64,000 bases of DNA. Origin: Haloplasma contractile SSD-17B. Its GTDB lineage: Bacteria; Bacillota_I; Bacilli_A; Haloplasmatales; Haloplasmataceae. Shown here piece by piece: positions 42,946 to 63,848 of this stretch. Both the position numbers and the translations under genes were made by a program. Location of the stretch: positions 62,001-126,000 of the forward strand of contig NZ_AFNU02000002.1 in the NCBI RefSeq assembly GCF_000215935.2, in the 5' to 3' direction. Each line of letters starts with the position of its first letter. Position 1 is the first letter of the stretch. Under the pieces are notes generated by a model, which was not told the DNA's origin, did no database searches, and saw only the letters and a list, made by a program, of their open reading frames with translations.

Positions 42946-43033
42946 TTTTGTCACTCACCTTCACTGTCTTATCTAGATTATTTTCATTTAAAATAAATGA
43001 TTTCTACTCTTTTTATTTAATAGTTACGATTAT

Positions 43034-45444: not shown

Positions 45445-47055
45445 TTATTTAATTTTTAATACACATGCTTCATATGGTCTTAATAATTCTAATTTAGTTG
45501 ATGTATCTATGTAGTTCGAAACAATCACTTCTTTTGCGTCTATTCCTAAATCTACGGATTGTTCGTTTTCAGTGAAGTTTGCAATTACAAATAATTCATT
45601 GTCGCTATCAAAACGGCTGTAGGCAAATATAGCTTCATGGTTCTCTAGAATTAATTGATAATCACCATAAATAATTGTGTCACTGTATTCACTATTTTTA
45701 CGTAAATCGATTAACTGCTTATATGTATAGAATACTGATTTTGGATCATTTAATGCATCTTCTACATTAATCTCTATAAAGTTAGGATTCAGTTTTAACC
45801 ATGGTAAACCATTTGTAAATCCAGCATGCTCATTTCTTGTCCATTGCATAGGCGTTCTAGCATTGTCACGTCCCATTATATAAACACCATTCATGAACTC
45901 ATCATGTGTTATTAATTTATTTTCTTCTACTATATCTCTATACGTACCATGAATTTCAACATCATTATATTCATGTAACGAATCAAATTTTACATTTGTC
46001 ATTGCAATCTCTTCACCTTGATACACATAAGGTGTTCCTTTCATCATGTGCAAGATGGTCGCCAACATTTTAGCACTTTCTACTCTATATATCCCATCAT
46101 TCCCCCATCTCGATACAATACGAGGTAAGTCATGGTTATTCCAAAATAATGAATTCCATCCGTTTTCAAGATCTGTCTGCCATTTACTTAAAATTTGTTT
46201 TAGTTGTTTGAAGTCTAGCTCTTTAGGTGTCCATTTTCCAAATTCTCCCCAGTCTAAAGTCATATGTTCAAATTGGAAAATCATGCTTAATTCTTTTCGA
46301 GAGGGCGAACTATATAGTTCTGCAATCTCAGGGTTTGCACCCCATGTTTCTCCTACTGTAAGTACATCGTAGTTACCAAAGGTTGCCTTGTTCATATCTT
46401 GTAATAACGGATGTAATCTAGGTCCGTTTCCAATGATTTTTTTATCAATCTCTTTACCTATTAAATCGATTACGTCCATTCTAAATCCACTGATCCCTCG
46501 ATCTAACCACCAGTTAATCATATTATGAATTTCATCTTGAACTTTAGGGTTTTCCCAATTTAAATCCGGTTGTCCTTTAGCAAAGTTGTGGAAATAGTAT
46601 TGTCCTGTAGTATTGTCGTAAGTCCAAGCTGATCCACCAAATGTACTTTTAAGGTCTGATGGTTCGTCACGCCAGATGTAGTAATCTCGATATGGATTAT
46701 CCTTACTCTTTCTTGCTTCTTTGAACCATTCATGTTGATCGGATGTATGGTTTACTACTAAGTCCATTACGATTTTTATTTCACGCTCATTTGCTTCTTT
46801 AATAAGTCGATCCATATCATCTAATGTACCAAATAGTGGATCGATGTCTTGATAATCTGAAATATCATAACCGTTATCTTTCATCGGTGATTTGTAGACA
46901 GGACTTAACCAGATAACATCAACACCTAATTCATTTAAGTAATCTAGCTTTTCAATAATTCCATTTATATCACCGACACCGTTTCCTGTTGTATCATTAA
47001 AACTTCTCGGATAGATTTGATAAACAACTGATTTATGCCACCACTTTTTTTCCAT
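45445..47055 (-). CDS. GH13 oligo-1,6-glucosidase type alpha-glucosidase
   Basis: A 536-residue cytoplasmic GH13_31 enzyme close to its neighbour at 41275 (shared YQIYPRSFNDTTG, NHTSDQHEW, GRDNARTPMQW). Nucleophile Asp194 in SGFRMDVIDLIG, acid/base Glu236 in TVGETWGANPE, Asp in NNHDLPR. Val195 after the nucleophile is the residue associated with alpha-1,6 (isomaltose) specificity. It would cleave isomalto-type ends left after debranching. The ATG at 47055 follows AAAGGAG by eight bases. Confidence 0.88.
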   Translation of the reverse strand: MEKKWWHKSVVYQIYPRSFNDTTGNGVGDINGIIEKLDYLNELGVDVIWLSPVYKSPMKDNGYDISDYQDIDPLFGTLDDMDRLIKEANEREIKIVMDLVVNHTSDQHEWFKEARKSKDNPYRDYYIWRDEPSDLKSTFGGSAWTYDNTTGQYYFHNFAKGQPDLNWENPKVQDEIHNMINWWLDRGISGFRMDVIDLIGKEIDKKIIGNGPRLHPLLQDMNKATFGNYDVLTVGETWGANPEIAELYSSPSRKELSMIFQFEHMTLDWGEFGKWTPKELDFKQLKQILSKWQTDLENGWNSLFWNNHDLPRIVSRWGNDGIYRVESAKMLATILHMMKGTPYVYQGEEIAMTNVKFDSLHEYNDVEIHGTYRDIVEENKLITHDEFMNGVYIMGRDNARTPMQWTRNEHAGFTNGLPWLKLNPNFIEINVEDALNDPKSVFYTYKQLIDLRKNSEYSDTIIYGDYQLILENHEAIFAYSRFDSDNELFVIANFTENEQSVDLGIDAKEVIVSNYIDTSTKLELLRPYEACVLKIK

Positions 47056-47367
47056 TATATACACTCCTTTTTTTGTTCAATAATGTTTCATTAGCGATTA
47101 TTATGAAAATTAACCATGATTCTCTTCCCTCTGATTTTACGATATTTATCTGAATATGAAAATGTACGAATTATGCTTTTTTTATACGATTTATACCTTT
47201 CATGTAATCCTTCTTTTGGTTATTGCTAGTAAGGTGACATTAATGGTAGGGAACGTCTCCTATAAACTAATGTAGTGCTTGAGATGCTTTGATAATTTTA
47301 AGCATAATAAAAACCATATAGATGAAACATCTATATGGTTTTAAATCCTTAATATGAACAAGATTTC
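47056..47367. other. Intergenic region between the permease operon and the isomaltase gene
   Basis: It holds the operon terminator at 47308-47343. The rest should contain the glucosidase promoter; a loose TTTCAT...ATGAAA repeat near 47086 was seen but not assigned. Confidence 0.45.
47308..47343. terminator. Terminator at the end of the seven-gene transport operon
   Basis: A 14-bp perfect stem, AAACCATATAGATG with its complement, a short loop and T/A runs. Confidence 0.85.
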
Positions 47368-48489
47368 TTATTCACCTGTAATACCTGATTTGTCAATACT
47401 TTCAACAAACCATCGTTGTACGATTGAGTACATAAAGATTAACGGTACAATTGATAAAAGTGTACCTGCAAATGCTTTTGACTCAGTAAAACTTAAATCT
47501 GGAGCTCTTGAAGCATCTCCACCGCTCTCAAATACGATTCCACCATAGGTTGACTCTAAATTTTCTAGTAACATAGGAATGGATTGATACTTACCATTCG
47601 AATAGACTGTTAAGAAGAAGGTTTCATTCCAATATAAGGCAAACCCATATACGAATGTAATAATGAAAGCCGGTGCTACCATTGGAAGAGCAATTTTATA
47701 GAAAATTTTAAATGCACCTGCGCCATCAATGATAGCAGCTTCTTCTACTGGTTTAGGAATCATTGCAAAGAACTGATAGAAAATTAGCGTAAAGAAAGCT
47801 GCTTGCAATCCTTGTCCCGTTAATGCTGGTAACAGAATTGGCATTAAACTTTTTTTGATACTAGGATCTGTAAACCCAACACCTTCTAGTATTGGTCGAA
47901 GAATACGATCCATTTCAGTATATAACTGGTTAGTTGGAATAAAGAATAATGTTTTTGGCATGATAAATGTAAAAATCATTAAGAAGATAATCACTTTCTT
48001 AAATGGAAAATTGTATCTTGCTAAACCATACCCAATAACAGCAGAAGCTGCTGCTAGACAGAGAGTAGAAATTCCAGCGATAAAAATTGACATATAAAGT
48101 GAATTTGGTAATAGATAAGATAATTTGAATCCATCGCTAGATATCATGCCAAACTGTGGTAGCAATGTATCCCATGTAGGTAAATTCAATGCTTTATACG
48201 TGAATTTATAGTTATCAAAATGGAGTTCAGATGGAATCCACCTAATCGTATTATCCACTAAATCGATATTTGACATCATACTTGTTGAAAACATGTAAAT
48301 AAGAGGATAGATAAATACGAATCCTATCACAATTAATAGGAAATACATAGCAAATTTAAACACAAAACCGTCTGATACTTTCATACCTAACATTATACGC
48401 TTGAATTTAGGAAGCTTTTTCCTCAGACATGTTTTTTTCTCTTCGATGTAATTTTGAACTGACTTTATGCTATTAATTAATTTTGTCAT
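47368..48489 (-). CDS. Sugar ABC permease, MalG type (second pair)
   Basis: Six membrane segments; the EAA loop is PVEEAAIIDGAGAFKIFYKIALPM. A long (~50-residue) basic cytoplasmic N-terminus precedes the first helix, and the first periplasmic-side loop is extended. It belongs to the CUT1 family importing oligosaccharides. It overlaps the upstream permease by four bases and has AGGGGGAG before the ATG. Last gene of the operon. Confidence 0.87.
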   Translation of the reverse strand: MTKLINSIKSVQNYIEEKKTCLRKKLPKFKRIMLGMKVSDGFVFKFAMYFLLIVIGFVFIYPLIYMFSTSMMSNIDLVDNTIRWIPSELHFDNYKFTYKALNLPTWDTLLPQFGMISSDGFKLSYLLPNSLYMSIFIAGISTLCLAAASAVIGYGLARYNFPFKKVIIFLMIFTFIMPKTLFFIPTNQLYTEMDRILRPILEGVGFTDPSIKKSLMPILLPALTGQGLQAAFFTLIFYQFFAMIPKPVEEAAIIDGAGAFKIFYKIALPMVAPAFIITFVYGFALYWNETFFLTVYSNGKYQSIPMLLENLESTYGGIVFESGGDASRAPDLSFTESKAFAGTLLSIVPLIFMYSIVQRWFVESIDKSGITGE

Positions 48490-49514
48490 GTTCTAGCTCC
48501 CCCTTTCTCTCTACGCTTAGTAAGTAGGTATAAAAAGACAATTAATATTGTTTGAATTAGTGCATAAAGTAGCGCCTGTGCCGATGCGTATCCTTCACGT
48601 TTTGAGGCGTCGAACCTTGCCTCTCTAATAATATCGTTGATCGGATTAGCATCAAAGTTTGCTAAGAATACAACAATATATACGATTGTAACACTGATTA
48701 ATGGATAAATAGTCGGTAAGGTAATTTTCCAAAATATATTCCACCCTGATGCACCATCAATCTGTGCAGCCTCATATAAACTCTTATCGATTTTCTGCAA
48801 TGCAGCTAGGAATATTAAGATTGGTAATCCACAATACCATAAGATTTCAAGCACGGTATCAAATAGGAAGATAATAATATCCACCATAGACTCTGGTGCA
48901 ATCTTATGAACGATCCCTATGATTAATCCATTAACATCTAAACTTAGTCCACCATAATCGTTCATATTCTCCATCAGTTCACCATTTAAGATGATAATTG
49001 GTAGGAAAAATATTAAACGGAATAAAGTAGTTCCTTTTAATTTTGTATTTAAGAGCATGGCAATAATAATCGATAATGCAATAATTACTGGTACATAGAT
49101 TAAAACCTCTACTGCAAAATCTTGTGCAGCAACTGAAAACTCTATATTTTCTGTCAGGATACGCTTATAATTATCAAATCCAACATGTTCATAAGTATAT
49201 CCTGTTTCAGCACTCCATAGTACGTTTTTAAAACTAAAAAACACAGTTCTAAATAATGGATAGGCAACAAATATAAGAAATCCTATAATCCATGGAGATA
49301 CGAACAGGAGACCTGTAATCGCATTACGACTTTTATAGGTCAAACCTTTATGACCTTCAAGCTTATCTTCCTGATCACGTTCCATTTCTATTTCCTCTTG
49401 ATTAATTTGTTCCTCTTCCATATTCATATCAAGTTCTTTTGCTTCATCTTGAATAGTAGTCGTTTCTTTTGATTCGTTTACGGGATGAGTGTTTTTATCT
49501 TTATTATTTATCAT
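48486..49514 (-). CDS. Sugar ABC permease, MalF type (second pair)
   Basis: A 342-residue CUT1 permease; the EAA loop is SLYEAAQIDGASGWNIFWKITLP. The first ~75 residues are a hydrophilic, very acidic extension (many Glu/Asp/Gln) not seen in the other MalF-like protein of the locus. It overlaps both neighbours by four bases (ATGA-type junctions), so tight translational coupling is likely. Confidence 0.87.
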   Translation of the reverse strand: MINNKDKNTHPVNESKETTTIQDEAKELDMNMEEEQINQEEIEMERDQEDKLEGHKGLTYKSRNAITGLLFVSPWIIGFLIFVAYPLFRTVFFSFKNVLWSAETGYTYEHVGFDNYKRILTENIEFSVAAQDFAVEVLIYVPVIIALSIIIAMLLNTKLKGTTLFRLIFFLPIIILNGELMENMNDYGGLSLDVNGLIIGIVHKIAPESMVDIIIFLFDTVLEILWYCGLPILIFLAALQKIDKSLYEAAQIDGASGWNIFWKITLPTIYPLISVTIVYIVVFLANFDANPINDIIREARFDASKREGYASAQALLYALIQTILIVFLYLLTKRREKGGART

Positions 49515-51811
49515 AGTACATCATATCCCTTCGCTTCGACTGTTGTACCATTGTATTCAATGTCGTAGGTATTGTAATTTACTATTACTGTTACAGTGTT
49601 CGTTCCATCAGAGAACTCTGATACAGAAACCCCACTCTGAGGAAGACTATGGTCAACCATTTCTAGACCGTTAACTGCGTTTAAACCTTTTTCTATAAAT
49701 GCATCGTATCTAGCAATACGATCTTTTAATACTTTGTACTCAGAAACAAAGACATCGCTTGAATTAGTACGCTTTAAGTGATATGCATTCTTTCCTGTGA
49801 GTAGATAAGAAGGATTGATTCCGTATTCAACTAATCTTAACAATGTGTTAGATTCATTTGAAATAAAGTTCAAATGTGGAGAATACATATTCATATGTCC
49901 ACTTGTTATAAGTTGTACAAGCGGTATTGTTGCGTCAATATACATAAATTCACTTGATGTGATTGGCGCATCATAATATTCATTTGTATATTTGTATAAG
50001 TAAGCATCTGGATTATAAAGATTAGTGCTAATCCCATTCTGATTTAATTTCTCTAGTGACTCATATATGAACGCTACATTTTCATTTCTATAGCGAATTT
50101 CATTTTTGTTTTTTGATGTGAATAATACATGGCTTAAACTATCGAAAGCTAATGAATCGATATCATACTCATTATAACGATCCAAGTCATTTTCAATAAA
50201 TGTAGGTAAATACTCTACATCATTTATATAGCCATATAAATACATACGCGTATATTCGAATGTTGATAACGCTCGTTTATTCATCTTGCTAGCTGTATAT
50301 TTGTTGTTGTTATAGCTTTTCAGATAATCAACGTAGTAGTTAAAGTCAACATCTTCATTATTCAAGTATTTAATCATAGACTCTAATTCATCTTTGTTTC
50401 CTAGCCCCTTATATACATCAAAGCGATAGGCTGACTCATCTTTATTAAATGTTTTATAAGTCACAGCTAGGTTTTCATATCCGGTATCTTTTAGAGCTTC
50501 TATAATATCAATCGCTTCTTTGTATGTAGTAGTTGGCACATATTTCTCAAAGAAAATACCATTTGTTATCTCATTTCCAATCATATCAATTTGCATTGGA
50601 TAATTTAACTCTCTCTTTACTTGTTCATTAGAAAAGCCATTTCCTTCTTCTAATTTTTGACGATATTTTTTAGCTAATCCAACGTAGTCCGCTTCGTCTC
50701 CAGATAAGAATACGTAGCGCTGTTTCAGGTCAAAGTCGTTTGTCTCGGGTTGGAAACCTAAAATATGTTGATCTTCATTTGTACGACTTTGGAACTGTTT
50801 GTAAGTAGCCCTGTAGTTATATATGAAATAAGATTGGTAGTAATGTTTTGAACCACCTTTAGACGTATAATTATATTGAGCGAAGTTTTCACCTGATTCA
50901 GAAACTACAAGTAAACCTGTATTTCCTACATCATGAATGATTCCATATATAGGGAGTGTCACTCGTTCTAATGGTTTAACAGTTTGTACTTTTAATTCCG
51001 ACTCTTCCCCTTCATCCATATATCCTGCATCTTGGCCATACACAAATGCACTATAGTCTAAGTTAAACTTTGGTTCCTCTTTTAATCCTACAATAGCACC
51101 TGAACCATCTGGAATTACTACATAACCATTCTCTTCTTGCATAGTAGACCCCAAATATGGATAAACATATATATTACTTAATGATATATCCGTATTACCC
51201 GGTGTCCATAGTTTAGGATCATATTCTTGAACTGACTCTCTTGGCACCTCTATAACTAAGTCTTCTCCATCTAATTTTACATGTACATCAAATTTAATCA
51301 TAATGTGCGTAAAGTCAACGGTTGCTACAAAGCCATTTGAATCTTTTTTATATTGAATGTCAACCATTCGGTCTCCAAATGAATTCGTCTCAAATAAAGT
51401 ACGAGTAGCCGGTGCAAACTTGTTATATGTATCGATGTAGACACCTGATTTAATTTTATTTACAATTTCTTCTGAGTATTGTTCAGGGTTAAACTCATTC
51501 GTTACATCGTATGAGAACCATACATAACCATTTGATACATTGCGAATTGCAATCGCTAATGTCTCTTCTTCTAAGTATAATTCTAAATAGTCATTAGCCG
51601 CAACTTTCAGAAACCTGTCTGGAATTTCAATATTGTATTCTTTTAGTCCCGTTCCTTGATTCGTAATATAATTATTCATAAAGTCTTTTCCTGATAAGGT
51701 CTTACCAGTTGATACTGTGTAATCAACCTCATTATCTTTAGCGTTAATTACTATAAAACTACTTACTATTAGGGCAATTGCTACAAGACTTCTAACAACT
51801 AACTTTTTCAT
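49511..51811 (-). CDS. Exported DUF5696-like protein of unknown function
   Basis: The signal peptide (VRSLVAIALIVSSFIVINA) has no lipobox. The ~740-residue exported part begins with beta-rich sequence (LELYLEEETLAIAIRNVSNGYVWFSYD) and continues into what could be a TIM-barrel-like region (DTGYENLAVTYKTFNKDE, then DIDSLAFDSLSHVLF), ending in a small beta domain (VTVIVNYNTYDIEYNGT). It resembles DUF5696 proteins often found beside CUT1 transporters. An enzymatic role on glycans is possible, but no catalytic residues can be named. Strong CGGAGGTGATCA start; four-base overlaps on both sides. Confidence 0.65.
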   Translation of the reverse strand: MKKLVVRSLVAIALIVSSFIVINAKDNEVDYTVSTGKTLSGKDFMNNYITNQGTGLKEYNIEIPDRFLKVAANDYLELYLEEETLAIAIRNVSNGYVWFSYDVTNEFNPEQYSEEIVNKIKSGVYIDTYNKFAPATRTLFETNSFGDRMVDIQYKKDSNGFVATVDFTHIMIKFDVHVKLDGEDLVIEVPRESVQEYDPKLWTPGNTDISLSNIYVYPYLGSTMQEENGYVVIPDGSGAIVGLKEEPKFNLDYSAFVYGQDAGYMDEGEESELKVQTVKPLERVTLPIYGIIHDVGNTGLLVVSESGENFAQYNYTSKGGSKHYYQSYFIYNYRATYKQFQSRTNEDQHILGFQPETNDFDLKQRYVFLSGDEADYVGLAKKYRQKLEEGNGFSNEQVKRELNYPMQIDMIGNEITNGIFFEKYVPTTTYKEAIDIIEALKDTGYENLAVTYKTFNKDESAYRFDVYKGLGNKDELESMIKYLNNEDVDFNYYVDYLKSYNNNKYTASKMNKRALSTFEYTRMYLYGYINDVEYLPTFIENDLDRYNEYDIDSLAFDSLSHVLFTSKNKNEIRYRNENVAFIYESLEKLNQNGISTNLYNPDAYLYKYTNEYYDAPITSSEFMYIDATIPLVQLITSGHMNMYSPHLNFISNESNTLLRLVEYGINPSYLLTGKNAYHLKRTNSSDVFVSEYKVLKDRIARYDAFIEKGLNAVNGLEMVDHSLPQSGVSVSEFSDGTNTVTVIVNYNTYDIEYNGTTVEAKGYDVL

Positions 51812-53919
51812 CGGTTGATCACCTCCGTAACGATTTCTTGAATAATTCCAAGCATTTGTCCGCTTAAAGCATTAATGATAAATAAGAATAGTCCCAGAAT
51901 TAACATTGTAAATAAACTCTTAGCGATAATCCATAGCGTTTCTAGAACATTATAGTTGTGAACATCTTTAATCATAAAGAACATTAAGAATCCTGTCCAA
52001 ATTGTAATCACTAAGTATCCAAAATCATAGAATACTTTTTCTTGATATGTAATGACATTACTTATTAGAATATTAATAGGCATGATTAGTAAGATTGGCG
52101 TTAATGAATATGCGGTTGCGTTATAAACATTTTTAAAGCTTCCTTCTCCGTCACTGATTGCACATACCAAGTAATTCGAAATGACCCATAATGTCACAAT
52201 AAAGATTAGAATAAATAACTCATAACCAATATTTACGCCGATTTTAGGTACAAATAAAAGGTTAGCATATCTATAATTAAGTACATAGACTGCTCCTAGT
52301 AATAGGTAAATAATTGTTGATGTTTTGATAGATACTCGATTCTCACGCTTGATCGAATAGAATCCATCAAAAGGTTGTTTTAAGAATTCAAAAATATAAA
52401 GTAATTCATCAAATGTTCGACTCTTATCTCTTAATTTAGAGACGATGTTTTGTCTCCTCTCTTTTAGTCCGTAGAATTTATTTAGAATTCCATAGGCTAC
52501 TCTAAGCACAATTAAGATCACAATTACCATAAACACTACTGACAGATTATCTTTCATCCATTCTTGCCTGATTCCCCAATATGCATCTGACATACCTTCA
52601 GAATCATTTGCATAATTATATTCACGGTACGCATCATCGTAGTTATTTTCACGCATGAACGCGTCACCTAAACCGATATGCGCGTAATCGAATAATGAAT
52701 TGTACTGTAAGATATATTGCCATTTTTCACGACTCGATTCATAGTTACCCGTTTGGTATTCGTCTAAGGCAGTATGGATTGAATTTGTAAATGGTGTTGG
52801 TTCGTAAACTTGTATCAAGCTATCCGCTTGATCTAGAACTAAGAGTTGATCTTTTGAATTAGCCGCAACACTAACTGGAGTAGTAAGCAACCCTACACGA
52901 CCACTTGTAAAGTCTTTTCCACCGAATAGGAATAATAAGTTTCCATTACGGTCGTATTCAAAGATATACCCTTTAGAACTTACAGCGTAGACATTATTGT
53001 ACTGCCCCACCCAAATACTATTCATTGTCTTAATTCCAATATCTGTTTTAAAGTAGTTTGTTCCTGAAACATTAAATTTCTTTATCGGGTTATTTTTAAG
53101 CGCACTCGTAACCGTATAGATATACCCTTTTTGATCAATCGCTACGTTCGATATATACGGCATCGAATTTTCTTCTGTTTCATTTTGCTTCTTCAGTTTT
53201 TCCTCTTGCGTTTCAGTTAAGAACCAAGAACGAACACGTTCAGTTAAAGGAATCCTTACTGGGTTCCCACCAAAGAATGTCATAAAACGTCCATCTTCAT
53301 CAAGCATGATTAGACCATTTGGAGAACTGGTTGCTCTTATATAAATATTTCCTCTAATATCCACCACTAAGTTGATTGGTTGATACTTGTATTCCTCGCG
53401 GTCTTCTCCTTCTTCTGGTTCCTGGAAAATTGGATGAGATGGTTTTCCAATTGTTTTGATTAGTACAACTTGATTATTTGTTAATAATTCATTTTTATCA
53501 AAAACGTTAATTTCCTTTGTTCGTTTATCTAACACATAAACTTCATTTTCAGTTACAAAGGAACTGATTGGGAAACTAAAGTTGTCATGTGTAATCTTTG
53601 TTACATAGTCATAGTTTTCATCCAATACATAAACTGTGTCTTCTAAACTATCCGTAATATAAACATAGTCATTCTCATCAACAAAAATGTGCTCTGGACG
53701 TTCGAACTTAACGCCACCTGCGTCTCTAATTTGTATAGACGGCGTATATGCCTCTGTCGTTTTGATTAATCGTCCATTTGAGTCCTGAGTATATGTATAA
53801 TATGGAGATGCTGTATTCGCTGATTGTGCTACTAGATTCGTTGTTGTTAAACTCGCAATTACCATTACCGTTATCATTATAAATAAAACTTTTGATTGTC
53901 TCATTAATTTTTTCATCAT
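51808..53919 (-). CDS. NHL-propeller / TPR / Yip1-domain membrane protein
   Basis: A signal peptide is followed by an extracellular NHL-like beta-propeller (residues ~45-365; repeats such as FERPEHIFVDENDYVYITDS and PKKFNVSG-type strands), a TPR-like stretch (~380-440: EYQTGNYESSREKWQYILQY, GLGDAFMRENNYDDAYREYNYA), one membrane helix (~455-475), and a C-terminal Yip1 domain with five or six helices (LVCAISDGEGSFKNVYNATAYSLTPI). The propeller probably binds protein or glycan outside the cell. Why this belongs in a sugar import operon is unknown. It lies six bases after a permease and overlaps the next gene by four. Confidence 0.75.
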   Translation of the reverse strand: MMKKLMRQSKVLFIMITVMVIASLTTTNLVAQSANTASPYYTYTQDSNGRLIKTTEAYTPSIQIRDAGGVKFERPEHIFVDENDYVYITDSLEDTVYVLDENYDYVTKITHDNFSFPISSFVTENEVYVLDKRTKEINVFDKNELLTNNQVVLIKTIGKPSHPIFQEPEEGEDREEYKYQPINLVVDIRGNIYIRATSSPNGLIMLDEDGRFMTFFGGNPVRIPLTERVRSWFLTETQEEKLKKQNETEENSMPYISNVAIDQKGYIYTVTSALKNNPIKKFNVSGTNYFKTDIGIKTMNSIWVGQYNNVYAVSSKGYIFEYDRNGNLLFLFGGKDFTSGRVGLLTTPVSVAANSKDQLLVLDQADSLIQVYEPTPFTNSIHTALDEYQTGNYESSREKWQYILQYNSLFDYAHIGLGDAFMRENNYDDAYREYNYANDSEGMSDAYWGIRQEWMKDNLSVVFMVIVILIVLRVAYGILNKFYGLKERRQNIVSKLRDKSRTFDELLYIFEFLKQPFDGFYSIKRENRVSIKTSTIIYLLLGAVYVLNYRYANLLFVPKIGVNIGYELFILIFIVTLWVISNYLVCAISDGEGSFKNVYNATAYSLTPILLIMPINILISNVITYQEKVFYDFGYLVITIWTGFLMFFMIKDVHNYNVLETLWIIAKSLFTMLILGLFLFIINALSGQMLGIIQEIVTEVINR

Positions 53920-53925
53920 TATCGC

Positions 53926-54798
53926 CTACTTAATACCAGACTGTGCCATTGATTCCATTACCTTACTTTGTAAGAATAAGAAGATAATGAAGTTAGGCAA
54001 GAACATAATTAGACTGGCTGCGGCTGCGACCCCGGTACTCGCCACTATGTTCCCACTTGTCTGAGTTAGTGTATTTAGGTAGAACGGTAATGTACGCAAT
54101 GCTTCTTTGTCAACAAATATATTTGATGCCTCTGTATTCATCCAACTTGCTTGGAATGCTAAAACAGCTACGGTAACAAGAGCTGATTTTGTTAAAGGTA
54201 ACATAATCTTTGTGTAGATTTTCCAGTTTGAAGCACCATCTACTATAGCTGCTTCTATTAATTCATCTGGTACTTGATCCATGAACTGCTTAACAAGGAA
54301 TAAACCTACAGGCATGGCAAGCATCGGTATTATGTGCGCCCATATTGTATTAAATATTCCCATTTCTACAATAATCAAGTATCGTGGAATTGCAACTGCA
54401 ATCGGCACGAACATTAGGGCATACGTATTAATCTTAAACATTGTTGATTTTCCTTTAAAGTTCAGCTTAGATAAAGCAAATGCTGATACTGAACTAAAGA
54501 AAACGGTAAATACAACAATAAGAAATGTAATCAATACACTGTTATAAATATAACGTGACATAGGAATTCCAGACTCCGCTGAAAAGTTAAATAACAGTCT
54601 AAAGTTTTCAAATGTCGCATCTCTTACCAAGAATCTTGGAGGGTATGCAAATAGCTCAGTAAAGGGCTTAAATGCATGATTTACTATATAGACAATTGGC
54701 AAACTCATAAAAATCGATAAAGGAAGTAAGATCATGTGAAACTTCATTTGACTTTTATGATATTTTTTTGGATTAAACATTATATTCTGAATCGACAT
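53926..54798 (-). CDS. Sugar ABC permease, MalG type (first pair)
   Basis: Six membrane segments; EAA loop PDELIEAAIVDGASNWKIYTKIMLP. A CUT1 permease of 290 residues. The frame opens at GTG 54804, but GAGGTGAG is correctly spaced from the ATG at 54798, which is preferred. It works with the MalF-type protein just upstream and probably with the 1003-residue binding protein. Confidence 0.88.
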   Translation of the reverse strand: MSIQNIMFNPKKYHKSQMKFHMILLPLSIFMSLPIVYIVNHAFKPFTELFAYPPRFLVRDATFENFRLLFNFSAESGIPMSRYIYNSVLITFLIVVFTVFFSSVSAFALSKLNFKGKSTMFKINTYALMFVPIAVAIPRYLIIVEMGIFNTIWAHIIPMLAMPVGLFLVKQFMDQVPDELIEAAIVDGASNWKIYTKIMLPLTKSALVTVAVLAFQASWMNTEASNIFVDKEALRTLPFYLNTLTQTSGNIVASTGVAAAASLIMFLPNFIIFLFLQSKVMESMAQSGIK

Positions 54799-54819
54799 CT
54801 TCACTCACCTCTTCCTTTC

Positions 54820-55863
54820 TTAATCGTGATCACCAAATAGCTTATAACTAATTCTATTAAAGAATATAACAACAGCAAACAACATTACGGTAACTGCCGA
54901 TGCATATCCCATTTCATATCGAATAAATCCGAAATCACTTGCGTGGTCCATAATCATCCAACCTGTATATTGAGGAGGAGGTGTCCCACCACTTAGCGCT
55001 GCAGCAACTCCAGATATGTTAAATGCACCAACAATTGCCATAACGGCACCGAATAGCATCTGTGGTTTCATCGCTGGAATTGTAATATAGAAGATTTCTT
55101 GCCAACGATTCTTAATTCCGTCGATATAAGCTGCCTCATATAATGTTCTGTCGATATTAAGTAATCCAGCTAACATCGCTAGAAATCCAATTCCGGCACT
55201 ACTCCAAAGTGCAATAATAATCATAATTGGAAATAGTAAATTGGGGTCCTGTAAAAATTGAACCGGTTCCTTAATCGGTGTAAATTTCATTAAGAAATAA
55301 TTAATGTAACCAGCTTGGTCACCACTGAATAGAACTTTCCAAACAATACCCATCATGATTGGACCTGTAATTGATGGTGAATAGATACATAATGTGTAAA
55401 TCGTTCTAACTTTTGGTGTTACTTGAGCCAGTAACCATGCTAATGCAAATGATAGCATATAACCCAAAGGGCCTACAATAATCGCAAACTTGAATGTATT
55501 TGGAACTGCCTTTTGTAAGAATACACTATCGGCAGTAAATAAGTTAACATAGTTCTTAAATCCAACAAAACTTGGAGCTTGAATCGTATTAAAATACGTT
55601 GTAGAAAGAACCCCAGAAATCATTGTTGGTAATAAGATTAATAAGAAAAATAATAGTGCATATGGTAAGACAAACATGTATGGGTGATTAAGTATTTTAT
55701 ATAGTTTTGTGTCCTCATACCACAATTGAAAGTTTCTAAATTTTTCAGATAGGGTTTCTGTCATTGGGCTTAATTTTTTAGAAATTGGTGCAAACAACTT
55801 CTTAAAAGGTGCTTTAATTGCTTGTTTAATACTTGCTTTTACTTTACTGAGTATCTTCATCAT
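54820..55863 (-). CDS. Sugar ABC permease, MalF type (first pair)
   Basis: A 347-residue permease of the LplB/MalF group; EAA loop TLYEAAYIDGIKNRWQEIFYITIPAM. A ~60-residue basic N-terminal region precedes the first helix. It overlaps the end of the binding-protein gene by 20 bases, with GGTGAG inside that gene as ribosome site; two consecutive ATG codons are possible starts. Confidence 0.88.
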   Translation of the reverse strand: MMKILSKVKASIKQAIKAPFKKLFAPISKKLSPMTETLSEKFRNFQLWYEDTKLYKILNHPYMFVLPYALLFFLLILLPTMISGVLSTTYFNTIQAPSFVGFKNYVNLFTADSVFLQKAVPNTFKFAIIVGPLGYMLSFALAWLLAQVTPKVRTIYTLCIYSPSITGPIMMGIVWKVLFSGDQAGYINYFLMKFTPIKEPVQFLQDPNLLFPIMIIIALWSSAGIGFLAMLAGLLNIDRTLYEAAYIDGIKNRWQEIFYITIPAMKPQMLFGAVMAIVGAFNISGVAAALSGGTPPPQYTGWMIMDHASDFGFIRYEMGYASAVTVMLFAVVIFFNRISYKLFGDHD

Positions 55864-58855
55864 CTTTTCTCACCCAACCTTCTACGTTGTCAATAGTAGG
55901 AATCTTGTATGGTTTAATAATATTCCCGTCTTCATCCATGTATTTAAACTCTAGTAATTTTCGTTGTAATTCTCTGTCTATCAGAGAAACAGCTTCGTCA
56001 ATAGCTACACGTGGATTAATCCCATCGAATACAACTTTATTCCATGCATTACTTAATTCACGTTCCACCATGTAATCCCCAGGTACTTTACCTGTCGTTT
56101 GAATCCATTCCCATTGTTCTAATACTTCATCTTTTGATTCTGTTGGCCAAGCCCCCTCTTTGAAGGCCTCAACATTTGCTGACATATATAAGAATTTATC
56201 TCCTAGTGTTGATTGAATATCATAAGAGAAGTTTGTTTGCGCTTCTTTTCCTGACCACCATTTAATTAATTCCCAAGTCGCTTCTTTTTTCTCACTATCT
56301 TTAAAGATAATACTAGAAGAACCATATGTAGGGTCCCAGCGCTCAATTACACCATCTTCATTTTCGACACCAGGTATTGGCATTACACCCCATTGTCCTG
56401 CAAGTTCAGGTGCAGCATATTTTAACTGAATATACATATTTGCTCCATCTATTCCTACTGGTACTTTACCTGTTCTAAAATGCTGATAGAAGTTTGCAGT
56501 CTGTGCTGGCAAGTTATAAACAGTGAATAAGTCTGTCATTAGTTCGAATGCTTCATAGGCTCCATCTTTATCGATGACTGTTGTAAGTGTATCTTGATCA
56601 TACAACATTCCACCATGTTGGTAAATAAATGGAGTTGTAGCATCTAATCCCTTATAAGCATTGACACCACCAATTGGTGTATATAAATCCATATCATACT
56701 TTTGTAAAACTGGCACAAGAGAGATCACTTCTTCCCACGTTTGTGGTGGAGTTTCACCTAAATCACCTAAAATATCTTTACGATAATAGAGGAGCTTAAC
56801 ATCTTGTTCCATTGGAATAGCATAAACACCCTCATCGTAAATATAGGGTACAAATGTATTTGGATTAAATTCTTCTGCTAATTCATAGAATCCATCATAC
56901 TGACTCAAATCTTCAGTTACACCACGAATGGCAAGTTCAAATGGCCTACCAAATGAAATACCAATAACGCCATCTGGTGTTGATCCTGCAGCGTTTGATA
57001 GTACAATTTTATTTTCATCAGGCATTAATGAAAGTTGAACTTTCACCCCTGTTTCTGGCGTAAATTCTTCATCAATCATTTTTTGCATAATCTCTACATA
57101 TAGTCGTGATTTATTTACCCATATTTCAACTGTATCTTCATCAACCTCTGCTACCTTATTGTATTTAGGGTCAGAGAATGAATAGAAGAATGCTTTAATT
57201 CCTTCGAATAAGCGAACAACAAACCATGCGTTTGCTTGTGGTAACTCTTCGTTATTATAGACATACATCTTGTCTAGATGTAATGGATTATAAATTAATG
57301 TTGGTGCAATGGTATTAATACGACCATGTGCTGATCGGTCTCCTTGACTGAATTTATTCATATATGCTGGTATTTCTTCTGGATCTTCAATAAATTCATC
57401 GATTAAATCTTTAGCAATTGTTAACTCTTGTATAGCTGGCACTTCATCATTACCTGTATAGTCAGACAAATCATCAATAACAGTATCTAAGTCATCTGAG
57501 ATAATTTGTAATTTCTGTTCTAGGTCAGGGATATAGTTCGAAATTTTCCAGTTACGTTCTTTATCGACAAGACCACCTGTTAATTTATTTATATCTCTAC
57601 TGATTGCCTCAATCTGATCTAAAATCACTAAAATATTATGATAGATATGACGCACCTCGACATTATCAACACTTAGAGATAGGGTATGTGTTCCCTCTTC
57701 TAAATAAATTTCATATGCATTACCAGTTGCATCACTTAATACCTCATTTGTCCATTTTGTTTGGTACTCAAAATTGTAACTTTCAAGTTCTTTAAATGGT
57801 ACTTTCCCATCAATTAAGATTCTACGGTTACTTGGCAGACCATTATTTGTATTTAAGTAGTATTTTAAAGCTAGTTGGTAATATCCTGACTTCTCTACAT
57901 CGAACGTATAGGAAACACGGTCCCCAGATTCTCCATAAGAGTAACCATCTAACACATTTAGCACACGATTTTTATACTCATATGGTGTTACTTTAGGGTC
58001 ACGCATATATTTAGAACGTATACTTTGTTTACTTTTAGAGGTAATATCTTCTGCTTCTATCTTAATTAACTCTTTTACAGAGGGCTTGTCACCAATTTGA
58101 TCTTTATAGTCTTGATAAGTTGGAATGTTAATTTCATTCGTTTCAATCGTTATATCTCCAATTAACAAATAGCCTTCATTAACAGTTAAAGAAATCTCAT
58201 TCGTTCCTTTATTCAATCTAAATTTTAATGGTTCTACAAAAAAATGATTTGGATCCTGTAAGCCAACTTGACTATTCCAATTGGATGTAATCTCTGATTT
58301 AGGTGTTAATTCATCATCATAACGGTCGAATTGTTTCCCTTCTTCCAATTTCCAATCGACTTCAACCTCTAAATCATTCATCTCTGTATATTGACTAGTT
58401 CCATTTACTGCAATTCCAACCCTTGGCATTAATCTTGTTTTCTGTAAGATATAATAATCATAGTAAAACTGATAAAGACCAGCGTCATCAACATTTATCT
58501 CAAATGTGATTTTTTGACCTGGTTCTAGATAGGTTGTCTTATTGTCATAATGATAACTTTGTGACGCTTCATAAAGTGTTCCACCTGTTACATCTTCCGC
58601 CGTTATAACATGACGGTCATCTCCATCATCTATGTTTCCATTTTCCCATTTTTGATACACCTTGTAGTAGTTCTCTAATTGATTAAAAGAATCGTTGTAG
58701 ATTTGATTATTTTTTAATGCACGATCTTTTAAATGCGTTGATGTCTCATCTCCTGAATCCGCATAAACATTTTTGACATGTTCATGAGCAAAGAAGAAAA
58801 AGAGAAAAAGAAAGACAAAGCTGACTAAGAGAAAAGCCTTCTTCATTTTCTTCAT
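55844..58855 (-). CDS. Large solute-binding protein with N-terminal carbohydrate-binding-like domains
   Basis: The 1003 residues comprise a signal segment (LLVSFVFLFLFFFFAHEHV) without lipobox; beta-sandwich domain 1 (~70-235, VITAEDVTGGTLYEASQSYHY, then YLLIGDITIET); beta-sandwich domain 2 (~265-425, LIKIEAEDITSKSKQS, SYTFDVEKSGYYQLALKYYL, SLSVDNVEV); a helical linker (~430-515); and a CUT1 solute-binding domain (~540-965, with EIWVNKSRLYVEIMQKMIDE, GVKVQLSLMPDE, WELIKWWSGKEAQ). The sandwich domains have the CBM6/CBM35-like EAE...G-Y pattern. Four times the usual amount of non-transport sequence makes it unusual. First gene of a seven-gene operon. Confidence 0.82.
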   Translation of the reverse strand: MKKMKKAFLLVSFVFLFLFFFFAHEHVKNVYADSGDETSTHLKDRALKNNQIYNDSFNQLENYYKVYQKWENGNIDDGDDRHVITAEDVTGGTLYEASQSYHYDNKTTYLEPGQKITFEINVDDAGLYQFYYDYYILQKTRLMPRVGIAVNGTSQYTEMNDLEVEVDWKLEEGKQFDRYDDELTPKSEITSNWNSQVGLQDPNHFFVEPLKFRLNKGTNEISLTVNEGYLLIGDITIETNEINIPTYQDYKDQIGDKPSVKELIKIEAEDITSKSKQSIRSKYMRDPKVTPYEYKNRVLNVLDGYSYGESGDRVSYTFDVEKSGYYQLALKYYLNTNNGLPSNRRILIDGKVPFKELESYNFEYQTKWTNEVLSDATGNAYEIYLEEGTHTLSLSVDNVEVRHIYHNILVILDQIEAISRDINKLTGGLVDKERNWKISNYIPDLEQKLQIISDDLDTVIDDLSDYTGNDEVPAIQELTIAKDLIDEFIEDPEEIPAYMNKFSQGDRSAHGRINTIAPTLIYNPLHLDKMYVYNNEELPQANAWFVVRLFEGIKAFFYSFSDPKYNKVAEVDEDTVEIWVNKSRLYVEIMQKMIDEEFTPETGVKVQLSLMPDENKIVLSNAAGSTPDGVIGISFGRPFELAIRGVTEDLSQYDGFYELAEEFNPNTFVPYIYDEGVYAIPMEQDVKLLYYRKDILGDLGETPPQTWEEVISLVPVLQKYDMDLYTPIGGVNAYKGLDATTPFIYQHGGMLYDQDTLTTVIDKDGAYEAFELMTDLFTVYNLPAQTANFYQHFRTGKVPVGIDGANMYIQLKYAAPELAGQWGVMPIPGVENEDGVIERWDPTYGSSSIIFKDSEKKEATWELIKWWSGKEAQTNFSYDIQSTLGDKFLYMSANVEAFKEGAWPTESKDEVLEQWEWIQTTGKVPGDYMVERELSNAWNKVVFDGINPRVAIDEAVSLIDRELQRKLLEFKYMDEDGNIIKPYKIPTIDNVEGWVRKDDEDTQ

Positions 58856-58891: not shown

Positions 58892-58926
58892 GAATAGTTT
58901 CCACGTTTTATATGTGGAAACTATTC
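58892..58926 (-). terminator. Perfect hairpin between the two binding-protein genes
   Basis: GAATAGTTTCCAC and its exact complement flank a nine-base loop with no T run. It is more likely an mRNA-stabilising or attenuating hairpin (as after malE) than a full terminator. Confidence 0.6.
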
Positions 58927-58951: not shown

Positions 58952-60601
58952 TTATTTACTATAGTTTCTTAAATAATCATCTAAGAAAGTATTCATTTCT
59001 TCATCCCAGTCTCCTGCGATATCATCATAATTATAACCCTCAAGACGAATTTGCTCTTTAATGTCCCAAGTGTTTAAGTGCGTATATGCTTTAGCAGCCG
59101 CAGGTATTTGTCTTGGGTACGCTACCGGGTCAGATAATTGCTTTTGGAATTCTGGGTCTTTGAATGCATCGAAGTTATAGATTGCGAATGCACTGTCTTC
59201 AGCGAATCCTTTAACAAATGGATGATTTTCCATAACAGTAGGATTTGCAGTAATTGGCCATCCCATGATGTAATCCATTAAGTGTGTTGAAGGGTGTACT
59301 GTTGGCCAATCTTCTTCAACTCCACCATCTTCGATGAATGCATCATATGATTCACCATGTTCAGCAATATCATCGTCAATTAATCCCCAACGAGCAGCTG
59401 TTCCTGCTTCACCGTATGATAGCCATTTTGCTAAATCATAGACTGCTTGCGCTCTTACAGGGTCTTGTTCTAATTCGTATGATAAACTAAATGTATCATA
59501 GTAAGCATGTAATGCTGTTTGACCACCCTCAGGTGCTTCAGGCATTGGATAAATATCCACTTCTAATTCACGTTCTCCAACTAATGCGTCGATATCAAAA
59601 CTTAGACTATAGAACCAAATGTTATCAATCGCTTGTTTTCCATCTCCCCAAGGCCATCCAAAGTTTTCACATGCAGTTGGTCTTTGGTCTTCTTCTAAGT
59701 CATAGAAGTGCCAACCTTTATCTCCTTCTTCAGCTACTTGCTCAAACCATTCACCAAATTTTTCAGCAGATTCAAAGTCAAAACGCTGTGTATCTAAGTT
59801 GAATCCCATCCATCCATTTGGAATTGAGTCAAAATAGTTTGGTCCATGCTGAGAGAAATCAATGATCCCTGGATAAATACATTGATTACCTGCATCTGTT
59901 AAGGCACCAACTTTTTCACGTAGTGCTTCATATTCTTCATAAGTCCAGTCATAACCTGGAACTTCAATGTTATTTTCCTTTAGTAATCCAACATTTATTG
60001 CTGGCATTTGTGCTACTGACATGTAAGCTACACCATAGATTTCTTCTCCATCGTATGATTTCATAAAGTCCATTGCATTCTGACGAATGAACGTTGCTTC
60101 TTCATCAGTACGTAAGTATGGAGTTAAGTCTAATGATAAATCTTGATCATAAACCTCAGCTGATAACGGAGAGTAGTAGATGTCTGGCATTGTACCCTCT
60201 TGTGCTGCTGCAACTAATAATTCTAATTGAGCAAAGTCATCTCCAGCACTCTTTTTAAATCGTTGGTCACGAACTACTGTGATGTTATCATACTGATCAG
60301 CCCATTTAAGCGCATTTCTGAATAATGTATTGTACTCATCTTCGTCATCGTAGAAGTGAGATGCATAAACAATTTCCATTTCACGCTCTTGCCAATCTGG
60401 AGTACCATTATCATCCTCATCAATATCTATAATATCACCATAGTACTCTTTCCATTCTTCTACTGTCTTGTCTCCAAACAAGTCATTATTAGTTGAAAAT
60501 CCATTTCCTGGATCTGTTGTTTGTGTTCCTGAGTTTCCACCACATGCAGCAAGTGTTAATATAACTGCTGTAGCGAACATCAACGTAACTAACTTCTTCA
60601 T
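58952..60601 (-). CDS. Extracellular solute-binding lipoprotein (sugar ABC importer)
   Basis: Lipobox LTLAACGG (Cys20), then a low-complexity linker and an acidic Ca-like stretch (DIDEDDNGTPDWQERE). The rest is a ~480-residue CUT1 binding-protein fold (EIVYASHFYDDEDEYNTLFRN, LVAAAQEGTMPDIYY, AQAVYDLAKWLSYGEAG). It is long for the family (549 residues). Start ATG 60601 after GAGGAGGATCTATAT; the upstream frame has no signal. It lies 97 bases before the operon and probably shares its transcript through the hairpin. Confidence 0.87.
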   Translation of the reverse strand: MKKLVTLMFATAVILTLAACGGNSGTQTTDPGNGFSTNNDLFGDKTVEEWKEYYGDIIDIDEDDNGTPDWQEREMEIVYASHFYDDEDEYNTLFRNALKWADQYDNITVVRDQRFKKSAGDDFAQLELLVAAAQEGTMPDIYYSPLSAEVYDQDLSLDLTPYLRTDEEATFIRQNAMDFMKSYDGEEIYGVAYMSVAQMPAINVGLLKENNIEVPGYDWTYEEYEALREKVGALTDAGNQCIYPGIIDFSQHGPNYFDSIPNGWMGFNLDTQRFDFESAEKFGEWFEQVAEEGDKGWHFYDLEEDQRPTACENFGWPWGDGKQAIDNIWFYSLSFDIDALVGERELEVDIYPMPEAPEGGQTALHAYYDTFSLSYELEQDPVRAQAVYDLAKWLSYGEAGTAARWGLIDDDIAEHGESYDAFIEDGGVEEDWPTVHPSTHLMDYIMGWPITANPTVMENHPFVKGFAEDSAFAIYNFDAFKDPEFQKQLSDPVAYPRQIPAAAKAYTHLNTWDIKEQIRLEGYNYDDIAGDWDEEMNTFLDDYLRNYSK

Positions 60602-60633
60602 ATATAGATCCTCCTCATCATTTTCTTTTATTA

Positions 60634-60646
60634 GAAAGCGGTTTAC
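60634..60646. promoter_or_regulatory. LacI/CcpA-like operator downstream of the binding-protein promoter
   Basis: GTAAACCGCTTTC on the minus strand is an imperfect palindrome placed between the -10 and the ribosome site. It is not a clean cre but resembles sites of LacI-family sugar regulators. Confidence 0.4.
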
Positions 60647-60661
60647 ACTCACTAATATTAT

Positions 60662-60691
60662 ATTATAATCTTGTTTTATTTTGAATGTAAA
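60662..60691 (-). promoter_or_regulatory. Promoter of the solute-binding lipoprotein gene
   Basis: TTTACA and TATAAT are 18 bases apart on the minus strand. Confidence 0.55.
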
Positions 60692-60973: not shown

Positions 60974-62629
60974 CTAGTACTTTTTCTTAATAAGCATAGT
61001 ACCAGCAGCACCTGTGATAAGAACAATTGAAATACCACCGATTACTAATGCCATGTTATCTTCAAAGAAGTTACCTTCTTCTACTTCTTCTACTACTGGG
61101 TCTTCTATTATTTCTTCAGCAGCTGGTTCAAACACTTTGAAGTTGAATAATAATTCACTTTCGTTGTCCCAGCTATCTGTAGCAGATACACTTAGGACAT
61201 AGTTTCCTACTATGCTTGAATCCGGTAATTCAGTTTGTTGTAATTGATCTATTAGACTTCCATCACGGTCATCTACAATGTTTAATCGTATATAGTCTTC
61301 TAAGTTAAATGTTGAATCTTTTTCAATTAAGTAAACATCGTTTTTCTCGTCATACTTAGTGCTATCTAATTTAACCTTATTTGTATAACTAATCATCGGT
61401 GCATTATTATCTAAATCAACTACAACCGTTGTTTCACCATTTTTATAGTTTAATTCATAGTTTCCGTCTTTACTTAATTCATCAGCTACATTAGCAGTAA
61501 AGACATATGCTTTCCCATCTACTGGTTCAACTGCAGTTAAATCAGTCATCGCAATTTCTTCACCAGAGTCTAAATCAGTAAGTACAATATTATCTGCAAG
61601 TGTATCCACAATTGCTTCGTACTGGAATTCAATATGTAGTGTAGTAGTTGATGTTGCATGAGTTCCTACACCCTCAACCGCATCAAATGGAGCTAATACA
61701 TTCTTAAGCGTTGCAACATAATCTACCATGAAATCATCATATGTGTAAGATAAGTGATCATTTCCTGCAACGTAGTATACTACTTTTTCTCCACTACCTT
61801 TTACATCCGTAACATCTATGAATAAGTCACTTGAATATTTCTTATTCCAGTCAGGGTCTCTAACGATAAACCCTACTTTGTCTTGAGCATCATCCGCCAC
61901 ATTGATAACAGCAACTTTCATCTCTGCTCCGTCTGGAGAGATATAATCCCATTGGAATGGAAGACCATCACTATGCTGAGAATCATTTATGGCAGTACCT
62001 TCTGCACCTGTATCCCAAGTGTGAAGTGTCCAACTATCGTATGCAGTTTCATCATTACGAACTTCTGGGTCGTAATATAGAACAGTAATAGTTCCTAATG
62101 ACGCATTTTCTCGTCCAAGACGCGCGAAATCTGTTGGGTTGTTAAAGAATGAATAAGCATCTGTGTTTACAAACACTCCATCATTTCCCTGAATAAAGTA
62201 TACATGCAGCTCATCAACTGTTCCATCAATTAATGAAGACCAATCGTATTCAATATTCGCTCCACCAGCTGAATCTTTGTAGTCACCAGGCCAGGTAGCA
62301 GTGTCCGATGCAAGATTTTGACTAATAGGTATAAACGCACCTTTGTCATCTAAAGAATCTGCTGCAGAACGATCAACACAGATTTCTATTACAGCTCCAA
62401 AATCATCTGTTCCTGATTTAGCAACACCGTCCGCTGAACCTGAATCACCATTCCCCCAAGTCCAAACACCAACTTCATCATATACATCATCTAGACGTTT
62501 GTAATGAACAACTACTTTTGCGTCGTCACATGCCTTTTCAGTATATTCGGCATTAATATCTATTATAGAAACCCCAAAAGTTACTATTGTAGCAACCATA
62601 ATTAAAAGAAAAGATAATAATTTCTTCAT
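60974..62629 (-). CDS. Membrane-anchored surface protein with CBM41-like alpha-glucan-binding modules
   Basis: After a signal peptide (LSFLLIMVATIVTFGVSIIDINA) come two CBM41/pullulanase-associated modules (~33-165, VVVHYKRLDDVYDEVGVWTWG; ~185-295, ITVLYYDP...YDSWTLHTWD...FIVRDPDWNKK), two Ig/cadherin-like beta domains (~310-415, ~415-505), an acidic linker (EEIIEDPVVEEVEEG) and a C-terminal membrane helix with KKKY tail. The Trp residues that stack on alpha-glucan in CBM41 appear present. No glycoside hydrolase domain exists. Inferred role: hold starch, glycogen or pullulan at the cell surface. TAGGAGGAG precedes the ATG. Confidence 0.75.
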   Translation of the reverse strand: MKKLLSFLLIMVATIVTFGVSIIDINAEYTEKACDDAKVVVHYKRLDDVYDEVGVWTWGNGDSGSADGVAKSGTDDFGAVIEICVDRSAADSLDDKGAFIPISQNLASDTATWPGDYKDSAGGANIEYDWSSLIDGTVDELHVYFIQGNDGVFVNTDAYSFFNNPTDFARLGRENASLGTITVLYYDPEVRNDETAYDSWTLHTWDTGAEGTAINDSQHSDGLPFQWDYISPDGAEMKVAVINVADDAQDKVGFIVRDPDWNKKYSSDLFIDVTDVKGSGEKVVYYVAGNDHLSYTYDDFMVDYVATLKNVLAPFDAVEGVGTHATSTTTLHIEFQYEAIVDTLADNIVLTDLDSGEEIAMTDLTAVEPVDGKAYVFTANVADELSKDGNYELNYKNGETTVVVDLDNNAPMISYTNKVKLDSTKYDEKNDVYLIEKDSTFNLEDYIRLNIVDDRDGSLIDQLQQTELPDSSIVGNYVLSVSATDSWDNESELLFNFKVFEPAAEEIIEDPVVEEVEEGNFFEDNMALVIGGISIVLITGAAGTMLIKKKY

Positions 62630-62806: not shown

Positions 62807-62850
62807 TAAAAAAATAGGAATCCTGTATCCTTTACAGAAATTCCTATAAT
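62807..62850 (-). terminator. Terminator of the AraC-type regulator gene
   Basis: ATAGGAAT...ATTCCTAT with inner CTGT/ACAG pairing and a seven-T tail on the minus strand; the stem includes the end of the coding sequence. Confidence 0.75.
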
Positions 62851-63758
62851 TTTGTCTTTTTATCTAAACGAGCATTTTTATAAAATTCAAGTGGTGGTAT
62901 TCCGACATATTTTTTAAATAACTTACTGAAATAATAGGGATTATCGATCCCAACTAAATACGCAACGACAGAAATCTTCACATCATTATTTAATAGTATT
63001 TCTTTTGCTTTTTCTATTTTCTTTAATTGAAGATATTGTTGAATACTACAACCATTATACTTCTTAAACAAACGATTTAAATAATCGTAGTTGAATTCGA
63101 ACTTTTCCACAACCATTTCTTTTGTAACCTGTCTATAAGAGTTTGATTCAATAAATTTTTTAACTTGTTGTGCTGTGAAAAAAGTTTTAGAAACCTTTTT
63201 GTAAAATTTATTATTTTTCTCATTTAAAATTAAGCGATATAAACGAATAAAAATTTCAATTAAACGAGTCGCGCATAGTACAGCATGAAAGTCATTTCCA
63301 TTATAATAGTCCTCAGCACCTTCTTCTACGTCATTAATTATTTTATAAAAGGAATTTAAATCCTTAACACTATAATGTTTAGGTAAATACAAATAGAAAT
63401 CTTTAAACTCTTTTTGATCATTAAAATAAGGTGATTTATTATGGTAAATCATATTGTCCAACTCTTTATCATTCTTGTATTCGTATTCTATATCATCAAT
63501 TTTAAAGTGAATATAGTAATAATCACATGCAGAAGCTTTATATCCAATATGCCTCTTCTCAGGTTCTAACACCAAAATGTCACCTTTAGTTAAATGATAG
63601 TGTGTTTCCCCTTCTTTAATATACAAATCACCACCGTTTACTATAAACAAGATGTACTCATCGGATATGCGTTCAAAGTGTTTCCATTTAGTCTGATATT
63701 TTACATGACCAATAAAGGTTACTTTTGGTAGTGTACCTGTGTTTATTTTGAAGTACAT
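62844..63758 (-). CDS. AraC-family transcriptional regulator with cupin sensor domain
   Basis: The N-terminal ~110 residues form an AraC-type cupin (EYILFIVNGGDLYIKEGETHYHLTKGDILVLEPEKRHIGY). The C-terminal ~100 hold the double helix-turn-helix (VTKEMVVEKFEFNYDYLNRLFKKYNG; ISVVAYLVGIDNPYYFSKLFKKYVGIPPLEFY). Such proteins usually activate sugar genes in response to a bound sugar. Position at the head of the alpha-glucan locus suggests control of it. The ATG at 63758 follows AGAGGAGTGATTGC; an ATG seven codons earlier is unlikely. Confidence 0.9.
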   Translation of the reverse strand: MYFKINTGTLPKVTFIGHVKYQTKWKHFERISDEYILFIVNGGDLYIKEGETHYHLTKGDILVLEPEKRHIGYKASACDYYYIHFKIDDIEYEYKNDKELDNMIYHNKSPYFNDQKEFKDFYLYLPKHYSVKDLNSFYKIINDVEEGAEDYYNGNDFHAVLCATRLIEIFIRLYRLILNEKNNKFYKKVSKTFFTAQQVKKFIESNSYRQVTKEMVVEKFEFNYDYLNRLFKKYNGCSIQQYLQLKKIEKAKEILLNNDVKISVVAYLVGIDNPYYFSKLFKKYVGIPPLEFYKNARLDKKTKL

Positions 63759-63848
63759 GCAATCACTCCTCTCTCCCATTTTATCACTTTATAAGTGTAT
63801 AGTAAACAGATTTGTAGGTCTACTAACTTACTTTACAATCATAAAAGA

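Follow-up and report, generated by a model that had tools for sequence, protein, structure and literature searches.

A window of 64,000 nucleotides from Haloplasma contractile SSD-17B (contig NZ_AFNU02000002.1, positions 62,001 to 126,000) was analyzed for a gene cassette that probably encodes one coupled glucan importer. All seven open reading frames (ORFs) at 47368-58855 were confirmed on the minus strand. They are transcribed in the order CBMSBP, permB1, permC1, NHL-Yip1, DUF5696, permB2, and permC2, where CBMSBP is a solute-binding protein (SBP) fused to modules resembling carbohydrate-binding module family 35 (CBM35). The successive junctions are a 20-nucleotide overlap, gaps of 15 and 6 nucleotides, and three 4-nucleotide overlaps, and the permB1-permC1 gap becomes 21 nucleotides if the ATG rather than the GTG start of permC1 is taken. 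Pfam assigned four BPD_transp_1 permeases, a DUF5696 protein, a Yip1 protein with NHL, SBBP, and tetratricopeptide repeat (TPR) signals, and an SBP_bac_1 protein. The ORF and Pfam analyses thus confirmed the seven tightly packed genes of the first-pass annotation, with two CUT1 permease pairs flanking NHL-Yip1 and DUF5696. However, the unit is better described as eight genes, because a lipoprotein SBP gene with a sigma-70-like promoter site lies upstream, and a terminator-like hairpin follows permC2 (Table 1). From its sequence, the hairpin between the two SBP genes is a candidate expression-tuning element that possibly raises SBP expression relative to the permeases. Near the SBP promoter, at 60620-60650, a partly palindromic stretch, TGTAAACCGCTTTCTA, resembles a LacI-family operator.

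Table 1. Coordinates of the importer cassette and of neighboring features in the window.
Feature	Position	Strand	Remarks
Promoter-like site TTTACA-18-TATAAT, 5' of lipoprotein SBP gene	60662..60691	-	Consensus match only
Lipoprotein SBP, 549 aa from corrected start	58952..60601	-	Homologue of PDB 22hh
Intercistronic hairpin, both SBP genes as flanks	58892..58926	-	Perfect 13-bp inverted repeat, about -19 kcal/mol
CBMSBP, exported, 1003 aa	55844..58855	-	N-terminal CBM35-like modules, then SBP_bac_1
permB1, CUT1 permease, first pair	54820..55863	-	
permC1, CUT1 permease, first (more conserved) pair	53926..54804	-	
NHL-Yip1 protein	51808..53919	-	Signal peptide, NHL beta-propeller, TPR, transmembrane helix, Yip1 domain
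DUF5696 (PF18952)	49511..51811	-	Pfam, structure model; GH129 fold, catalytic site not conserved
permB2, CUT1 permease (UgpA/MalF-type), second pair	48486..49514	-	EAA loop EAAQIDGA
permC2, CUT1 permease (MalG/UgpE-type), second pair	47368..48489	-	EAA loop EAAIIDGA
Terminator-like hairpin, 15 bp + T-rich tail, 3' of permC2	47310..47342	-	Predicted unit end
Surface protein, PUD (pullulanase-associated) domain + C-terminal membrane anchor	60974..62629	-	Alpha-glucan-binding candidate
AraC-family regulator	62844..63779	-	
GH13 enzyme, beyond terminator (downstream)	45445..47064	-	
Pullulanase (PulA_N1, CBM48, GH13)	43034..45148	-	
Second GH13 enzyme	41275..42954	-	

The recurrence of the cassette was analyzed in related and distant genomes. 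DUF5696 passed the curated cut-off in 21 of the 60 relatives and in 56 of the 392 genomes of a phylum-level sample. All seven genes occurred in the same order in 93 of 134 sampled DUF5696 neighborhoods. Most of the remainder were truncated at contig ends, carried a B2-C2 fusion, or had genes that the simple ORF caller used here missed behind antisense ORFs. The sampled neighborhoods comprised 53 further loci and 80 named loci carrying the same set and order, the named loci coming from Bacilli, Clostridia, Erysipelotrichaceae, Halanaerobiales, Chloroflexota, and Thermotogota. Overall, the cassette spans Bacillota, Haloplasma/Acholeplasma-type lineages, Chloroflexota, and Thermotogota, and three copies are present in the H. 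contractile genome itself. Most of nine further loci also contained it, including the divergent member L189, while L194 and L195 were a spurious match and a fragment. Because the same gene order recurs across phyla, a chance arrangement is excluded, and the dedicated importer module proposed earlier is borne out.

The check suggested by the first-pass annotation was whether Yip1 and DUF5696 genes lie away from sugar transporters. They do not. The two were paired in 60 relatives, one decayed remnant excepted, and a CUT1 permease adjoined DUF5696 wherever the contig extended far enough. In the converse search, an NHL-Yip1 profile retrieved sites paired with DUF5696, with the exception of contig fragments, which could not be judged; G026:C59 is a cassette cut off by its contig end. 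The decayed remnant, L188 (G029:C3), retains only the C-terminal half of DUF5696 with permB2 and permC2, and it was the sole exception seen on an intact contig. No description of the whole cassette was found in the open-access papers searched, which is weak evidence of absence.

CBMSBP carries the SBP_bac_1 domain of family 1 extracellular sugar-binding proteins, and the closest PDB entry to this part is Lin1841, an SBP for beta-1,2-glucooligosaccharides. The ORF of the lipoprotein SBP extends over 58952-60757, and its likeliest start is the ATG at 60601, behind GAGGAGGA. Its lipobox cysteine is near-invariant in the family, and its profile matches SBPs in the PDB. The solved homologue 22hh shares 70-74% identity with SBPs from cassettes of Anaerolineae/Chloroflexota, several of which are linked to GH144. 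The lipoprotein SBPs of Anaerolineae cassettes are close relatives of the solved SBP structures 22hh-22hl; no publication on 22hh was found in the open-access literature, which is weak evidence of absence. A gene of SBP size lay 5' of CBMSBP on the same strand in 90 of 108 cases, and 66 of these genes match the lipoprotein SBP profile.

The permeases form two heterodimeric pairs, and in the window all four carry the EAA loop for ATPase docking. Across the 93 complete cassettes, a strict EAA pattern was found in 92 B1, 88 C1, 92 C2, and 63 B2 proteins; the B2 misses shown have the EAA.IEGA variant, which is frequent in permB2. A permease tree resolved four positional clades with support of 0.999 for B1, 0.98 for C1, 0.96 for C2, and a weak 0.32 for B2. 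Pair 1 (B1C1) was more conserved than pair 2 (B2C2). No MalK-type ATPase was found in the 134 DUF5696 neighborhoods. The H. contractile genome encodes two such ATPases, one beside the permeases and SBP-like gene of another transporter, and the other standing alone on a different contig next to addB. By analogy with MsmX, we infer that the importer is powered by a shared ATPase encoded elsewhere.

The distance matrices of the seven proteins were correlated in all pairwise comparisons (r 0.78-0.95). In one branch, NHL and Yip1 are encoded by separate adjacent genes, while they are fused elsewhere, and in another branch B2 and C2 are fused into a protein of about 620 aa. These natural fissions and fusions suggest interacting parts. 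The branch with split NHL and Yip1 genes (L023, L025-L029, L034-L037, L040) is also associated with DUF624 and with GH3 or NAGPA-domain proteins.

These data bear on the possibility that the locus encodes two ordinary, neighboring importers, one made up of CBMSBP and B1C1 and the other of the lipoprotein SBP and B2C2, which would take up the same glucan at different chain lengths. In that case, NHL-Yip1 and DUF5696 would be accessory surface proteins without direct contact to them. Two SBPs and two distinct permease pairs are what such an arrangement would contain, and in several loci the lipoprotein SBP gene follows permC2, adjoining pair 2. However, the pairs were never found apart in intact cassettes, NHL-Yip1 and DUF5696 always lie between them, and the distances of all parts correlate. 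We regard two separate importers as rather unlikely and as less probable than one coupled importer.

The Yip1 domain (PF04893) of the NHL-Yip1 protein scored 49.4 bits against a curated cut-off of 28.6 (E 6e-13). The structure model (pLDDT 87) contains a signal helix and an NHL propeller, together with TPR helices, a single long membrane helix, and the helices of the Yip1 domain. Foldseek matched the propeller to TRIM71, Brat, and the extracellular domain of PknD. The protein is probably a membrane scaffold that holds the parts of the importer together. A role as sensor, in which the propeller binds either an SBP or the glucan and the membrane domain of Yip1 relays a signal that couples import to regulation, is improbable. 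The propeller and TPR outside the membrane, the multi-helix membrane domain, and the AraC regulator nearby in the window would fit a sensor. However, no conserved partner regulator was seen; the AraC protein was matched in only one other neighborhood, whereas NHL-Yip1 is universal and its gene is wedged between transporter genes. No papers on Yip1 combined with NHL or permeases were found in the open-access literature, which is weak evidence of absence.

DUF5696 of the window exceeded the curated PF18952 cut-off with 497 bits (E 1e-148) over model positions 3-612 of 612. An AlphaFold2 model built from 49 sequences (pLDDT 89.6) begins with an N-terminal membrane helix, followed by a beta-sandwich and a TIM barrel, and ends in a beta domain at the C terminus. 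According to this model, DUF5696 has the fold of glycoside hydrolase family 129 (GH129). The top Foldseek match was 8rzk (E 3.8e-29, TM 0.62/0.70); the GH129 enzymes ZgGH129 and NagBb ranked first (E 4e-29 to 3e-24), followed by GH101, GH31, and GH36. A profile search of PDB sequences again retrieved GH129 enzymes (E 1e-12). Five stand-alone genes outside the cassette in other genomes of the class (L179-L183) are weakly similar to PF18952. Since L180 matches NagBb at E 3e-146 and the five are mutually alignable, they were used as true GH129 references, to which DUF5696 aligned with an hhalign E of 7.5e-17. A PF11308 (GH129) profile search gave no match even in controls and is uninformative on absence. 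No mention of DUF5696 was found in the open-access literature, again weak evidence of absence.

The active site was compared with the GH129 catalytic residues as known for NagBb and as indicated by the D486N in the title of 8rzk. The catalytic Asp aligns with D557 of the window protein. Only 14 of 49 DUF5696 members have D in this nucleophile column, which reads N, D, P, N, and A in the five closest relatives. At the acid/base position, no conserved acidic residue was found. Residue 414 (strand 1) is D or E in 39 of the 49. DUF5696 was therefore rejected as an ordinary GH129 enzyme, as neither the catalytic Asp nor the acid/base Glu is conserved. The possible glucan cleavage raised in the first-pass annotation was thus not supported for DUF5696, although the GH129 fold is present. 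Because the nucleophile position is not conserved, DUF5696 is probably a non-catalytic, glucan-binding part, as far as its sequence indicates. That it is an active GH129-like glycosidase trimming the glucan at the membrane before import, with residues other than the GH129 dyad, is very doubtful: the fold, the sequence-level link to GH129 enzymes, D557, and the mostly acidic residue 414 speak for it, but the nucleophile column varies even among the closest relatives and the acid/base position lacks a conserved acidic residue.

The types of neighboring enzymes tracked the DUF5696 tree. One large group of cassettes has GH144, GH35, SOGP, and GH3 nearby, a set known for beta-1,2-glucan (PMC8861115). 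A second group carries a GH161 phosphorylase (E 4e-227 to 9qqk) with GH16, GH5, GH30, or GH3, pointing to beta-1,3-glucan (PMC6484121). GH161 with GH16/GH3 was found in 15 cassettes, the GH5 and GH16 cluster counts being merged in the grouping and not separable. In the clade of the window (8 loci, support 1.0), GH13 enzymes occur in 7 of 8 loci, compared with 1 of 121 elsewhere. Given this association, the local pullulanase, and the PUD-domain surface protein, alpha-glucan of the starch, pullulan, or glycogen type is most likely the substrate at the window locus. The earlier proposal of alpha-glucan thus held for this locus and its clade. As a family-wide substrate it was rejected, because most cassettes with recognizable enzymes have those for beta-1,2- or beta-1,3-glucan.

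Taken together, we favor, with some reservation, one coupled glucan importer that is a variant of the CUT1 ATP-binding cassette (ABC) system. Outside the cell, the lipoprotein SBP and the CBM35-like-SBP fusion would bind glucan chains or long oligosaccharides. The membrane-tethered DUF5696, whose catalytic site is not conserved, probably serves to hold or guide the chain, and the NHL-TPR-Yip1 protein probably keeps the assembly connected. The chain would enter through two non-equivalent heterodimeric channels, B1C1 and B2C2, energized by a shared MsmX/MalK-type ATPase encoded elsewhere, and cytosolic enzymes would finish the imported chain. The multi-part envelope complex of the first-pass annotation would correspond to this assembly; its existence as a single physical complex, the transport, the chain handling, the Yip1 and DUF5696 roles, and the use of a distant ATPase are inferred from the findings above.

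Several points weigh against this reading. The loci were mostly gathered with DUF5696 as bait, and co-inheritance of linked genes alone could yield the distance correlations, which are supportive but not decisive. The Fisher value for the GH13 association counts related loci as independent, and the GH13 genes of the window lie beyond the predicted terminator and may form a separate unit. The window DUF5696 retains the Asp at the nucleophile position.

A bolder form of the coupled importer is a distinct ABC importer class, which we hold only tentatively. In this double-channel complex, two binding proteins would supply intact glucan chains, which DUF5696, as a dead glycosidase, and NHL-Yip1, as a scaffold, would pass on to a coupled pair of permease heterodimers. 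It would be a Gram-positive counterpart of outer-membrane glycan importers.

The cassette was compared with known systems. It resembles CUT1 ABC importers of the MalEFGK2 and MsmEFG-MsmX type in its permeases with EAA loops, its SBP_bac_1 proteins, and, presumably, an ATPase located elsewhere. However, it differs by its two permease pairs, two SBPs, one of them fused to CBM35-like modules, and obligate NHL-Yip1 and DUF5696. DUF5696 shares its fold and detectable sequence similarity with the GH129 glycosidases NagBb (5wzn) and ZgGH129 (5opq/8rzk), whereas it is membrane-tethered, lies inside an importer cassette, and lacks a conserved catalytic site; true GH129 enzymes, such as L180, are separate genes. 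The Sphingomonas alginate importer AlgM1M2SS with AlgQ1/Q2 also imports a polysaccharide through an ABC system with more than one SBP and would be a functional analogy. It has one heterodimer and its own ATPase and is Gram-negative, and it is not known to include Yip1 or DUF5696. The Listeria innocua lin1839-1841 cluster for beta-1,2-glucan (SOGP, GH3, and the Lin1841 SBP) is similar in that many cassettes carry SOGP, GH3, GH144, and GH35 and that Lin1841 is the nearest match to the SBP portion of CBMSBP. The text of PMC8861115 consulted gives this system one SBP and does not mention NHL-Yip1, DUF5696, or a second permease pair. For GH161 beta-1,3-glucan clusters, the text of PMC6484121 consulted remarks on ABC genes without ATPases (nucleotide-binding domains) and mentions ordinary permease and SBP components but no extra proteins.

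Two further genes were seen elsewhere in the window. The gene at 28973-30997 encodes a protein in which six or more LysM domains precede a SpoIID domain, and the bacterial protein encoded at 40314-40904 matches TMEM164 (E 2.5e-20).

The cassette has been preserved as one unit in several phyla and handles various glucans, and two of its core parts lack an assigned function. DUF5696 is now assigned a GH129 fold and a likely non-catalytic role. A dedicated Gram-positive machine for the import of long glucans thereby becomes directly testable. Furthermore, the cassette would mark loci for the utilization of beta-1,2-, beta-1,3-, and alpha-glucan.

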